DNA of 64,000 nt from Flavobacteriaceae bacterium (GTDB taxonomy: Bacteria > Bacteroidota > Bacteroidia > Flavobacteriales > Flavobacteriaceae). The DNA lies in assembly GCA_013214065.1 (NCBI GenBank), contig JABSPK010000005.1:248001-312000 (forward strand). The letters run 5' to 3'. A program made the position numbers and the translations under genes. Under the pieces are notes generated by a model, which had not been told where the DNA came from, made no database searches, and worked only from the letters and a program-made list of their open reading frames with translations. Below, piece by piece: positions 1,975 to 5,708 of the stretch. Within the stretch, counting starts at the first letter, position 1. Every line of letters begins with the position of its first letter.

Positions 1975-2661
1975 TTAGGCCAGGATCTTTTTTTGATAAT
2001 AAGCGTACAAGGCTTCAGGGGAAGCACCAAGAAAGTTCTTCAAATGGATAACGGCGAAATGGAATTGGACGTTGAACGACCCTTTTTCACGGTACTTGCG
2101 GGCTGAGGTAATCACATGGTCCGGTAAGATCCTGAAGTGACCACGGCGGTACAATCGGGTGATGAATTCCGTGTCTTCGTAGATCATATACGCCTCGTTG
2201 AAACCGCCTTCTTCGAAAAACACCTCCTTTTTGATGAAAAGCGATTGATCACCGCCACGACAAAGGGTATGGTTGATCCGGGTCATCCATCCGAAAAAAC
2301 GCAAAAAAACATTTTGGGTATCGAACCGCATTCGAAAACAGCCGGTCTCGAACCCCGCTGCTATGGCCTCACGGATTTTGATGTCGAAGTCTTTTGGAGG
2401 TAAGGTGTCGGCATGTAGAAAATAAAGCGTATCGCCTTTTGCGGCCTTGGCCCCGGCGTTCATTTGTCTAGCACGACCCTTTTTCGAAGGTACCACGCTT
2501 ACGGGCAAGGTTTCAAGAAGCTTCAAGGTTCCGTCGGTACTGCCCCCGTCTACCACGATGATTTCGGAAACCCAGTCCGTCGACCGGGTTTCACTCAAAT
2601 GTTCGATCAATCCCGCAATGCAGGACGCTTCGTTTAAGACGGGAATAATGATGCTCAGCAC
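1975..2661 (-). CDS. TIGR04283-type family 2 glycosyltransferase of arsenosugar gene clusters
   Basis: A GT-A family 2 transferase of 228 residues. It opens with 'MLSIIIPVLNEA', carries 'IIVVDGGSTDGT' and the DxD-like 'FLHADTLPP', then 'GGDQSLFIKKEVFFEEGGFNE' and 'YEDTEFITRL'. This pattern is that of the TIGR04283 family, which recurs beside arsM/arsS and is thought to transfer the sugar or aglycone in arsenosugar formation; the true substrate is unproven. A GTG start is chosen: an in-frame TAA lies just upstream and no ATG is available. It is the last gene of the operon; a 60-bp gap separates it from arsM and holds a Shine-Dalgarno-like AAGGAGG. Confidence 0.8.
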   Translation of the reverse strand: MLSIIIPVLNEASCIAGLIEHLSETRSTDWVSEIIVVDGGSTDGTLKLLETLPVSVVPSKKGRARQMNAGAKAAKGDTLYFLHADTLPPKDFDIKIREAIAAGFETGCFRMRFDTQNVFLRFFGWMTRINHTLCRGGDQSLFIKKEVFFEEGGFNEAYMIYEDTEFITRLYRRGHFRILPDHVITSARKYREKGSFNVQFHFAVIHLKNFLGASPEALYAYYQKKILA

Positions 2662-2721
2662 GGAACGTGATTTACGGATTCCTCCTTAAGAGGTCAACAT
2701 TGGCCAACGAACCTTACAGCA

Positions 2722-3687
2722 TTAGCAGCAACCACCACCGTTATAATGCCAAGTGCTTTCGCTGACATGGATCTCATCACTGGCGCTTGCCAAGGCGGCA
2801 GCGGTTTTATCGCAAACGGCCAAAGGTTGGTTTTGCAACAAGACATGTCCGTTGTTGTCATCAAAATATTCGGCATCACCATAGTAAATAGCCGTTTTTC
2901 CTGTAAAGACACAAGGGCCGTCTTTAGGCATGGGATCTTTGATGGCAGCGATTTCGATCGACTCAATGTAGACCAATTCATCAGTCGGGTAATGGTTCGG
3001 TGTCAAGACACGATAGGACTTACGGGCGCGGATTTCTATGGTGCCAAAGCCGGCGTCGGTCAATACTTTGATGTAATCCTTCATCGGAATACTACCACTA
3101 AGACACAAGGCCCTCAAACGATCGTCATTGCGCAAGGTATCGTTCATGGGTTGTTCGCAAATGGGGTCGCTCATCACCAATCTTCCGTGTGGTTTTAGCA
3201 CGCGGTACATTTCAGCTACGGCCCGCTTCAAATCGTCCATTTTAAAGATGTTGAACAAACAGTTCTGCGCAGCAACATCGATGCTCTCATCATCAATCGG
3301 TAGGTTCAGGGCATCACCCTTGACCAAGTTTACGAATTCGCTTTTGAACCAATCGTTTTCTTCTTCAGCGATCTTAAAATTGTTTTTGGAAGCGGTGAGC
3401 ATTTCATCGACCGAGTCTACTCCGGTTACCCCACCGATCTGACGTGAGAAGTAAGAGAATTGCAGGAGTTCCATTCCGCCTCCGACCCCGACATAGAGTA
3501 CTTTTGGATCATTGATCAAATCTTGGGCCGAAACGGTGCTTCCGCAGCCATAATTCATTTCTTGCATGATCTTCGGAATCGACAAGCCAGGAAACTGCCA
3601 AATTGGATTGGTAGTACAGCATAAGCCCACATCAGGGGTTACGGCAGCTTCTTTATACAGTTCTTGGGTCGCATCTAAATAGCTCAT
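2722..3687 (-). CDS. arsM: Arsenosugar-type arsenite S-adenosylmethionine methyltransferase ArsM
   Basis: A 321-residue class I methyltransferase that would methylate As(III) to mono- and dimethyl species with SAM. Motif I is 'VLYVGVGGGMELL', the acidic loop 'GVTGVDSVDEML', and motif IV region 'SIDVAAQNCLFNIF'. Cysteines suited to binding trivalent arsenic lie at the N-terminus ('GLCCTTNP', 'NYGCGST'), in the middle ('CLF', 'ICEQP', 'LCLSG') and at the very end ('GGGCC'). The N-terminal 'LCCTTNPIWQFPGL' opening and the tail match the arsenosugar-cluster form rather than the shorter stand-alone ArsM. It overlaps the phosphorylase gene by four bases (ATGA), so the two are translationally coupled. 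Confidence 0.85.
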   Translation of the reverse strand: MSYLDATQELYKEAAVTPDVGLCCTTNPIWQFPGLSIPKIMQEMNYGCGSTVSAQDLINDPKVLYVGVGGGMELLQFSYFSRQIGGVTGVDSVDEMLTASKNNFKIAEEENDWFKSEFVNLVKGDALNLPIDDESIDVAAQNCLFNIFKMDDLKRAVAEMYRVLKPHGRLVMSDPICEQPMNDTLRNDDRLRALCLSGSIPMKDYIKVLTDAGFGTIEIRARKSYRVLTPNHYPTDELVYIESIEIAAIKDPMPKDGPCVFTGKTAIYYGDAEYFDDNNGHVLLQNQPLAVCDKTAAALASASDEIHVSESTWHYNGGGCC

Positions 3688-4499
3688 ATCAGTCGGATTA
3701 ATTCTTTGAATAAAGTTATCATTTTTGGTTCAGCTTCAGCGGCAATCGCAATAATCTCCTGAATATCAATCGGTTTTAAATTATCGGGATCGCATTCGTC
3801 AGTCAATACCGAAACCGCTACTATGGGTAGTCGTAAATGATTGGCGACAATTACTTCAGGTACGGTACTCATTCCGACCGCATCGGCCCCCAAGGTTTTT
3901 AACATGCGATACTCGGCTTTGGTTTCGAGTTGTGGCCCGACAACGGATACATACACCCCTTTTTTCAATGCGATATTGTTTTCACTGGCGATTTCTTCCA
4001 AATGCCGGCGCATTTTAAGGTCATACGGTTCACTCATATCGACAAATCGGTCACCGAACTCGGCGACGTTCTTAAATGCCAAAGGGGAACCTCCTTGCAG
4101 GTTGATATGATCTTCGATCAACATCAGTTCGCCTTTTTTGTAATCGAGGTTGATGGCCCCGGCCGCATTTGAGATGAACAGCTTTTTGATCCCCAGCTGA
4201 TGCATGACCCGAATGGGATAGGTAATGTCCAAAAAATCGTAGCCTTCATAAAGGTGGAACCGTCCCTGCATGACGACCACTTTTTTTCCTGAAATGGTTC
4301 CGTAAAGCAACTTGCCGGAATGGAATTCGACCGTAGCCAAAGGAAAGAAAGGGATATGGTTGTAGTGCGCTTCGATGGCATCTTCGATATGATCGACCAA
4401 TTGGCCCAGTCCGGTGCCCAGCACAATGCCTATCTCAGGAGCTTCGAACCCCTTGTTCTTCAAATAGGCTACCGATTCATCAAGTTGTTTTTGTGTCAT
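3684..4499 (-). CDS. Purine nucleoside phosphorylase, trimeric (type I) family, probably 6-aminopurine-specific
   Basis: 271 residues with the trimeric PNP/MTAP landmarks: 'GIVLGTGLGQL', 'MQGRFHLYEGYDF' (phosphate site), 'ISNAAGAIN', 'VVGPQLETKAEYRML' (base-site Glu) and 'GMSTVPEVIVANH'. Near the C-terminus the base-site segment reads 'VSVLTDECDPDN'. Human PNP has Asn243 here; MTAP, which splits methylthioadenosine, has Asp, and the human N243D mutant gains adenosine activity. So an adenine nucleoside is a likely substrate, in keeping with release of adenine from an arsenic-deoxyadenosine intermediate. That role is inferred from the operon. Four-base overlaps with both neighbours (ATGA). Confidence 0.85.
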   Translation of the reverse strand: MTQKQLDESVAYLKNKGFEAPEIGIVLGTGLGQLVDHIEDAIEAHYNHIPFFPLATVEFHSGKLLYGTISGKKVVVMQGRFHLYEGYDFLDITYPIRVMHQLGIKKLFISNAAGAINLDYKKGELMLIEDHINLQGGSPLAFKNVAEFGDRFVDMSEPYDLKMRRHLEEIASENNIALKKGVYVSVVGPQLETKAEYRMLKTLGADAVGMSTVPEVIVANHLRLPIVAVSVLTDECDPDNLKPIDIQEIIAIAAEAEPKMITLFKELIRLI

Positions 4500-5155
4500 T
4501 TCTTCAAATGTGTAAAAAAGGGTTTGAAAGCTTCAATATCCGCAATATCCTCATAAATGTCAACATCGTTCCTGCTTTGCAGGCGATACAAATTGGACCC
4601 CTGAAGGTCGCTCAAGGTATCTTTTAAGACCGTTCCCGTGCCCCAGACCTTGTTGTTGAAGAGCTGCGGTTCAAGGGTTTTCATACCGAGCAAGTAATAG
4701 CCGCCGTCTTCTGCAGGGCCGATAACGAAGTCGTGATCATCCAAGGCCTGGAATGCGTTTTCAAGTGCTTCGGTATCGATTTCATAAAGGTCGCTTCCAA
4801 TGATGATGATTTTTTCAAATCCTTCTTCAAAACCATTTTTGAAAGCTTGGTGCATGCGCGCACCGAGGTCGATACCCTCTTGTAGGTGCTTTTCGAACAC
4901 CGGGTCGCTCCATAGGTCGTCTTCCCATATCTCTTCGGAATAATAGACCCTTTTGGTGGCGCTGACTCCCCGGGTAACGGCCGCGGTATGTTGCAACAAA
5001 AATTCGTAGACCTTGAGGGCCGATTCATTGCCGATGGTCGCGGCCAATCGGGTCTTGCACTTCCCAAGTTCCGGGTTACGTGTAAAGATCAGCAAAAGTG
5101 AATTTGGGCTGTCAGTCAATGTCTTTTGGTTTGGTTTTGTAAACTTTCTCGGCAT
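4496..5155 (-). CDS. TIGR04282-type glycosyltransferase/nucleotidyltransferase-like protein of arsenosugar clusters
   Basis: 219 residues of the DUF2064/TIGR04282 family, a GT-A-like fold related to MobA and CofC. Visible motifs are 'LLIFTRNPELGKCKTRLA' (nucleotide-sugar loop), 'IIIIGSDLYEI' (with the metal-binding Asp) and 'GPAEDGGYYLLGM'. Members pair with TIGR04283 transferases next to arsM/arsS and are believed to activate or transfer the sugar part. The predicted start overlaps the rhodanese gene by 44 bases; a later start inside 'TLTDSPNSLLL' is possible but lacks an ATG. The stop overlaps the phosphorylase start (ATGA). Confidence 0.8.
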   Translation of the reverse strand: MPRKFTKPNQKTLTDSPNSLLLIFTRNPELGKCKTRLAATIGNESALKVYEFLLQHTAAVTRGVSATKRVYYSEEIWEDDLWSDPVFEKHLQEGIDLGARMHQAFKNGFEEGFEKIIIIGSDLYEIDTEALENAFQALDDHDFVIGPAEDGGYYLLGMKTLEPQLFNNKVWGTGTVLKDTLSDLQGSNLYRLQSRNDVDIYEDIADIEAFKPFFTHLKK

Positions 5156-5621
5156 TGGTCAGCAGTTTGCCCCAATACTTACTGAACACATGTACTTTTT
5201 CGGTCTGCACACCCGTACTGTCATAAACCGGGTTGCCATCGATCTTCCATTGGAAAATACCGCCATATAGGTTGGATACATCCGTATACCCTGCCTTCAC
5301 TAATTTTTGGGCAATATCTTCCGACCGTACCCCAATCGAGCAATACACTACAATGGGACTATGTTTGTTCGGAATCCGGTTTTGGATGGAGTCCATCGAA
5401 AAGGTTTTGTGGCCCGACCAAATGGCCCCCTCGAGATGGCTCACTTCGAACTCTTCCTGTTCCCTCGCATCAAGTAAAATGGGGGTGATTTGGGTCAATT
5501 CAGCAACGGTGATGTAATCGACCGCCCCTGAATTGTACCTGTCCAACACGCCGGCGATGGTGCGTTGACCACAAACCGTCAAGAATACAAAGGATAACAG
5601 AACCGTGAAGAGATAGCGCAT
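5112..5621 (-). CDS. Rhodanese-domain lipoprotein, first gene of the arsenosugar operon
   Basis: Starting at the ATG at 5621 gives an SPII signal ('MRYLFTVLLSFVFLTVCGQ', lipidated Cys in 'LTVC') and a single rhodanese domain with 'LLDAREQEEFEVSHLEGA' and the active-site loop 'VVYCSIGVRSE', whose Cys would carry a persulfide. The C-terminal 'NLYGGIFQWKIDGNPV' closes the fold. Rhodaneses of this kind are regularly found with TIGR04282/04283 transferases; lipidation places this one at the cell envelope, unlike its cytoplasmic neighbours. The frame extends upstream to 5663, but that extension translates a perfect palindrome (5621-5639) and would bury the signal peptide. Confidence 0.75.
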   Translation of the reverse strand: MRYLFTVLLSFVFLTVCGQRTIAGVLDRYNSGAVDYITVAELTQITPILLDAREQEEFEVSHLEGAIWSGHKTFSMDSIQNRIPNKHSPIVVYCSIGVRSEDIAQKLVKAGYTDVSNLYGGIFQWKIDGNPVYDSTGVQTEKVHVFSKYWGKLLTNAEKVYKTKPKDID

Positions 5622-5639
5622 ACCGTTTTCAAAACGGTA
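5621..5639. promoter_or_regulatory. Perfect 19-bp palindrome at the start of the arsenosugar operon (candidate operator)
   Basis: TACCGTTTT-C-AAAACGGTA is a perfect 9-bp inverted repeat with a 1-bp centre, touching the start codon of the rhodanese gene. Read on the minus strand it follows directly after TATATTTA, one base from the -7 consensus TAnnTTTG, so it would cover the transcription start. No T-run follows, so it is not a terminator. A dimeric repressor site is the simplest reading; no regulator gene lies next to it. Confidence 0.5.
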
Positions 5640-5708
5640 AATATACGGCGATCCTACGGTCAAGGATTGACAATTATGATTATCTTAAACCGAATAAATC
5701 GCATTGCT

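Follow-up and report, generated by a model that had tools for sequence, protein, structure and literature searches.

A probable ArsM half of a split arsenosugar biosynthesis gene set in a member of the Flavobacteriaceae

The window, that is the whole 64,000-nucleotide stretch of Flavobacteriaceae DNA analysed here, contains, with high probability (roughly 85%), the ArsM-bearing half of an arsenosugar biosynthesis gene set that is complete but physically split over two loci. The first-pass annotation had described an arsenosugar-type operon without the radical-SAM enzyme ArsS. This is correct for the operon and its surroundings, the whole-genome ArsS search having given no match on the window contig (C20), but it is wrong at the level of the genome, which carries a full-length ArsS on contig C12. 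Since ArsS lies on another contig, its absence beside arsM is not absence from the genome; the puzzle of the missing gene dissolves, and the alternative already offered by that annotation, an arsS elsewhere in the genome, was the right one. A separated arsS is ordinary in the clade to which this genome belongs.

The ORF listing shows five consecutive ORFs on the minus strand (1975–5663), which were assigned to families using NCBIfam profiles with curated cut-offs. These are, all on the minus strand, an exported rhodanese-domain protein (NF045521; 5112–5621; 181.8 bits against a cut-off of 145, and 60.9 bits for Pfam Rhodanese), a TIGR04282/DUF2064 protein named as a glycosyltransferase (4496–5155; 208.6 bits, cut-off 134), a purine nucleoside phosphorylase (PNP; TIGR01700; 3684–4499; 304 bits, cut-off 293.35), the arsenosugar-type arsenite methyltransferase ArsM (NF038099; 2722–3687; 562.8 bits, cut-off 400) and a TIGR04283 family-2 glycosyltransferase (1975–2661; 244.8 bits, cut-off 182; Pfam Glycos_transf_2 71.4 bits). 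The ArsM and PNP genes overlap by 4 bases, as do those of PNP and TIGR04282. The first ATG of the rhodanese gene is at 5621, while the ORF tool places a TTG start at 5663. The motif NYGCG and a C-terminal CC were found in 132/132 ArsM proteins examined and CCTTNP in 114 of them; the window ArsM carries all three. The five-gene arsenosugar-type set reported earlier is real, all its members scoring above the curated cut-offs, and, judged from sequence, the membership of these genes in the arsenosugar biosynthesis gene set holds.

The ArsS gene (TIGR04167) is located at C12:451301–452206 and scored 443.5 bits against a cut-off of 300. The whole-genome profile search returned only one other place, a weak radical-SAM match on C18 (32.1 bits); all 14 control genomes gave weak matches, and one of them (Synechococcus elongatus) exceeded the cut-off. 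As read from its translation, the C12 protein keeps the radical-SAM cysteine motif and the C-terminal cysteines. Its gene adjoins that of an AhpD-like TIGR04169 protein, the usual partner of ArsS (198.5 bits, cut-off 120). A diverged copy of TIGR04282 immediately precedes the pair, and the gene of a TetR regulator directly follows it. Loss of arsS through an assembly error, which the first-pass annotation had named as part of one case that would overturn its claim, was rejected: both loci lie more than 75 kb from a contig end, and the split is also seen in the single-contig genomes G032 and G056, where arsM and arsS are 603 and 462 kb apart, respectively.

The arsM-arsS genes of Synechocystis are arsenosugar biosynthesis genes (Xue et al. 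2019, as cited in PMC8552651). As far as that citation describes them, both genomes have members of the ArsM and ArsS families; in the window genome, by contrast, the two genes are on separate contigs, so that their usual but non-obligatory adjacency is lacking, and arsM is accompanied by the genes for PNP, TIGR04282, TIGR04283 and the rhodanese.

We surveyed 149 genomes of the family, and ArsS was above its cut-off in every one of the 85 that had an NF038099 ArsM above cut-off. The distance between the two genes was 5 kb or less in 61 of these and 5.7–11.7 kb in nine, while in 15 they were farther apart or on another contig; one of the latter (G136), in which ArsM is ~1.5 kb and ArsS ~0.6 kb from contig ends, may represent an assembly break. 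The earlier expectation that comparable loci of relatives would have arsS next door is borne out for most genera examined (70/85 within 12 kb). The usual gene order in relatives is AhpD-ArsS-rhodanese-TIGR04282-PNP-ArsM-(DUF547)-TIGR04283, the homologous cassette genes being interleaved with arsS in the linked loci. These loci (G096, G113, G129 and others) share with the window the order from rhodanese to ArsM, followed by TIGR04283. They differ from it in that DUF547 lies outside the window operon, and in that the place directly before the rhodanese gene, taken by AhpD-ArsS in the linked loci, is held in the window by a divergent GH32 gene.

In the ArsS tree 12 of the 15 split genomes, the window genome among them, form together with G075 a single supported clade (99/92). 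New flanking genes are common to 13 of 75 ArsS loci, and 12 of these 13 belong to the split clade. Among the named ArsM loci, the closest 80 all lack ArsS in the flanks read, and ArsS was found elsewhere in all 48 searchable genomes of close named relatives (50 were submitted). The ArsS module has moved to another site in one clade of these marine bacteria, which includes the window genome, and has been retained there; the split layout is the rule in this clade.

The first-pass annotation had also proposed that the operon makes a different organoarsenical, independently of ArsS. The physical separation of arsM from arsS would agree with this, as would five genomes (G001, G018, G037, G103 and G128) which keep the rhodanese, TIGR04282, PNP and TIGR04283 genes with neither ArsM nor ArsS above cut-off. 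However, ArsM never occurred without ArsS in the survey, ArsS is kept by every searchable close relative with the split layout, and homologous genes are interleaved with arsS in the linked loci; the proposal has gained no support and we regard it as very improbable. The same five genomes, in three of which DUF547 was also assigned, bear on another reading, according to which rhodanese, TIGR04282, PNP, DUF547 and TIGR04283 would be the core of a non-arsenic pathway with ArsM and ArsS as optional additions. A further point for it comes from the 25 ArsS genomes lacking an NF038099 ArsM, since 14 of them have no ArsM above either cut-off and 10 of these 14 are listed as at least 99% complete. Yet the five core-only genomes are related to the window's clade, with flanking genes in common in at least four of them, and this fits a recent loss; moreover, G018 retains an ArsS fragment (54.7 bits, in a 137-residue frame) and G103 an ArsM-like protein just below the cut-off (229.9/263). 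A conventional ArsM (NF008823) above cut-off also stands in for the missing one in 11 of the 25 genomes as against 3/85 and 4/39 in the other groups (p = 2.5e-6 and 0.0028, rough values obtained with a hand-chosen 85-bit line and with related genomes treated as independent), as is expected if methylated arsenic is needed. A non-arsenic core is unlikely, but parts of the cassette may have other work, given the 14 genomes without any ArsM and the five core-only ones.

Under the favoured reading, a complete but split arsenosugar gene set, arsenosugar production by the window organism is predicted from its gene content. ArsM would make dimethylarsenic(III), which ArsS would couple to the 5'-deoxyadenosyl group of SAM. 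Phosphorolysis of this arsenic nucleoside by PNP would give 5-dimethylarsino-5-deoxyribose-1-phosphate, the TIGR04282 protein would activate the latter to an NDP-sugar, and TIGR04283 would transfer the NDP-arsenosugar to an acceptor, e.g. glycerol or a lipid. The exported rhodanese might, at a guess, transfer sulfur within the envelope. The late part of this scheme, in which a PNP with a hydrophobic 5' pocket removes adenine from the ArsS product and is followed by a TIGR04282 nucleotidyltransferase and a TIGR04283 transferase, is put forward tentatively, at somewhat less than even odds. The literature searched, which excludes most subscription papers, yielded no assignment of enzymes to the post-ArsS steps.

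The Cys active-site loop YCxxGxR is present in 109/109 rhodaneses examined. The gene had earlier been called a rhodanese lipoprotein, of which the rhodanese part stands; the window protein has a signal-like N-terminal stretch, but by eye its cysteine falls outside a canonical lipobox, which leaves the lipoprotein part weak. As a family trait lipoprotein status is likewise unsupported, a lipobox pattern occurring within the first 45 residues in at least 15 of the 109 (a lower bound, as many ORF starts are over-extended).

Despite its glycosyltransferase name, the TIGR04282 protein as modelled (pLDDT 92) has a fold that appears nearest to nucleotidyltransferase-type proteins, among them the guanylyltransferase 7p97 (Z 19.2), the probable nucleotidyltransferase 2i5e (18.7) and Rv2983 (16.9). 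Against a nucleotidyltransferase role, the highest-scoring match of all, 3cgx (Z 26.6), itself bears the name of a putative nucleotide-diphospho-sugar transferase, and mannosylglycerate synthase, a glycosyltransferase, gave Z 13.1. Its best characterised fold neighbour is 3-phospho-D-glycerate guanylyltransferase (7p97), which like CofC/FbiD (6bwg; Z 16.7) shares the fold at 17–19% identity; the sequence match to TIGR03552 CofC is weak (35.1 bits, far below the cut-off of 105). A GxxKTR motif is kept in 149/161 TIGR04282 proteins.

By alignment the window PNP has Ile246 and Leu191 where PNPs encoded next to lpxK have His and Phe. The His corresponds to His257 of human PNP, which has a role in binding the 5'-OH; the position is Ile or Val in 82/82 cassette PNPs, His in 8/8 lpxK-linked ones and Val in an aligned fragment of methylthioadenosine (MTA) phosphorylase. 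The latter enzyme (PDB 1cb0) resembles the window PNP in this hydrophobic residue and in an Asp at the base-recognition place, but the window protein belongs to TIGR01700 and scored only 102.6 bits with the MTA phosphorylase profile TIGR01694 (cut-off 274.85). The base-site Asp was rejected as a mark of adenine preference, being present in 100/100 PNPs compared. It is quite possible, though we would sooner bet against it, that this PNP simply serves purine housekeeping, or the phosphorolysis of 5'-deoxyadenosine and MTA in general, and has no arsenosugar step of its own. The genome has no other TIGR01700 match at E ≤ 1e-20, and PNPs of this type occur in 132/149 genomes; furthermore, 8 of 10 PNPs outside the cassette and lpxK contexts are also non-His, in genomes without ArsS above cut-off or a neighbouring cassette, so that the residue is not arsenic-specific. 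Against this, PNP is within two genes of ArsM in 49/52 ArsM loci and directly before it in 79/80 named loci, the single miss being a contig end, and G033 has both an lpxK-linked His-type and a cassette Ile-type enzyme, which suggests different duties. Cassette and lpxK-linked phosphorylases, both of which G033 carries, offer a natural control for PNP, and their contrast, together with the TIGR04282 fold comparison, proposes assayable enzymes for the post-ArsS steps. A second nucleoside phosphorylase of the window genome is located at C18:349718 (PF01048, 85.7 bits).

The five minus-strand genes at 1975–5621 encode a rhodanese (NF045521), TIGR04282, the phosphorylase PNP (TIGR01700), ArsM (NF038099) and TIGR04283. 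Each scores above its NCBIfam cut-off, with concordant Pfam matches, which bears out the family names of the first-pass annotation. The PNP/ArsM and TIGR04282/PNP pairs overlap by 4 bases, the rhodanese gene is overlapped by that for TIGR04282, and 60 bases separate ArsM from TIGR04283; these overlaps and the short gap constitute an operon-like arrangement. The same annotation correctly recognized an arsenosugar gene set. This set, an ordinary one, does not lack the radical-SAM enzyme ArsS but is divided between two loci, of which the window, on contig C20, carries the one with ArsM. A search of the whole genome with the ArsS model (TIGR04167) gave one match over the cut-off, on another contig (C12:451301–452206; 443.5 bits vs 300), and a second match of 32.1 bits on C18. 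The C12 frame specifies 362 residues, with a CxxxCxxC cysteine motif and a cysteine-rich C-terminal tail. It is directly preceded by a TIGR04169 AhpD-like protein (198.5 bits vs 120) and directly followed by a TetR-type regulator; also just before it is a diverged copy of TIGR04282 (92.3 bits, under the cut-off of 134, and covering profile positions 68–186 only). The window ArsM and the ArsS lie ca. 77 and 98 kb, respectively, from the nearer contig end, and the contamination listed for this genome is 0.33%.

Among the best 80 named loci, chosen by nearest ArsM, none contained ArsS within the flanks read (9 kb or more on each side in 68), and all 48 genomes searched from this group possess ArsS over the cut-off elsewhere. 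Their genera, where given, are mostly Flagellimonas, Allomuricauda/Muricauda, Maribacter and Arenibacter. In a sample of 149 genomes from the family ArsS exceeded the cut-off in 110, and the arsenosugar-type ArsM in 85, every one of which also has ArsS. Comparison of the homologous loci placed the ArsM and ArsS starts less than 5 kb apart in 61 of these 85 and 5.7–11.7 kb apart in 9; another 7 have both genes on a single contig, 377–683 kb apart, and the remaining 8 have them on separate contigs, among these G136, which may reflect an assembly break. The order at linked loci is AhpD, ArsS, rhodanese, TIGR04282, PNP, ArsM, often a fatty-acid-hydroxylase-like gene, DUF547 and TIGR04283. DUF547, GH113-like, FAD-oxidoreductase and ferredoxin genes, which accompany such gene sets (cassettes) in many relatives, are found 3–7 kb before the window start (C20:244931–245653 and neighbours; locus L042).

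In some loci (L073–L077, L110, L130–L133 and others) a block of genes lies between ArsS and the rhodanese. It comprises, besides a diverged copy of TIGR04282, a receptor of SusC type (592 bits vs a cut-off of 368), a SusD-like protein assigned by eye and matching no NCBIfam model, and transporter-like (symporter-like) and phosphoesterase-like genes; the SusC/SusD-like pair with the latter two would suit substrate uptake. Judged as an arrangement only, this layout is intermediate between adjacent and separated. In the ArsS tree (74 rows, with an unsettled bootstrap and 47 of the 71 inner branches open) a single clade (99/92) holds G075 and 12 of the 15 split rows, those with the two genes far apart or on separate contigs; the other three (G035, G064 and G136) are placed elsewhere, on long branches. 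One common foreign neighbourhood surrounds ArsS in 13 of 75 ArsS loci, and G064 shares it although outside the split clade. For the window's clade, the simplest explanation is that ArsS was relocated once and then inherited vertically.

The arsenosugar-type ArsM is absent from 25 of the 110 ArsS genomes. A conventional ArsM (NF008823) is over the cut-off elsewhere in 11 of them, with a stop inside the match in G120; no ArsM over either cut-off was found in the other 14. Since a second kind of ArsM (matches of at least 85 bits) is rare in other groups (3 of the 85 genomes that have ArsM and ArsS, 4 of the 39 that lack ArsS), replacement of the arsenosugar type by the conventional one looks real. 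Five genomes (G001, G018, G037, G103 and G128; loci L100–L104) keep the rhodanese, TIGR04282, PNP and TIGR04283 with ArsM and ArsS both under cut-off; G103 has an ArsM-like protein (229.9 vs 263) and G018 an ArsS fragment (54.7 bits).

At E ≤ 1e-20, TIGR01700 matches no protein of this genome other than the window PNP; PF01048 reveals one other phosphorylase, on C18. Aligned with 99 others, sites being placed through the sequences of solved chains, the window PNP has Ile and Leu where human His257 and Phe200 sit. Ile/Val and Leu occupy these places in 82/82 cassette PNPs, and His and Phe in 8/8 PNPs in lpxK context; 8 of 10 belonging to neither group are of the cassette type. A cruder pattern count of 180 PNPs gave 168 of cassette type, 9 of His type and 3 unclear. 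G033 has one PNP of cassette type and one of His type. The cassette residues are consistent with a pocket accepting 5'-substituted 5'-deoxynucleosides, the ArsS product among them. This residue type is also found without ArsS, so the enzyme may ordinarily act on MTA or 5'-deoxyadenosine.

An extract of PMC8552651 has the Synechocystis ArsS working with ArsM in the initial steps; among the papers listed by title and full-text searches on arsenosugar biosynthesis and TIGR04282, there was no title or abstract in which the steps beyond ArsS are assigned. Of interest are an assayable proposal for these steps and the genomes keeping parts of the set. The structure model of TIGR04282 (45 input sequences; pLDDT 92, pTM 0.87) best matched 3cgx (Z 26.6), an uncharacterised protein titled putative nucleotide-diphospho-sugar transferase. 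Next came 3-phosphoglycerate guanylyltransferase (Z 19.2), then a probable nucleotidyltransferase (Z 18.7) and Rv2983 (Z 16.9); the glycosyltransferase mannosylglycerate synthase (13.1) fell amid cytidylyltransferases. As a nucleotidyltransferase acting on a sugar-1-phosphate, TIGR04282 would form a logical bridge from PNP to TIGR04283. The motif GxxKTR occurs in 149 of 161 TIGR04282 proteins and in 0 of 25 diverged copies, which may have lost nucleotide binding. The diverged copies are often near ArsS (L040:8439–9119 and 24 other loci). A second TIGR04283 paralogue, at G000:C5:25181–25843, is barely above its cut-off (182.5 vs 182).
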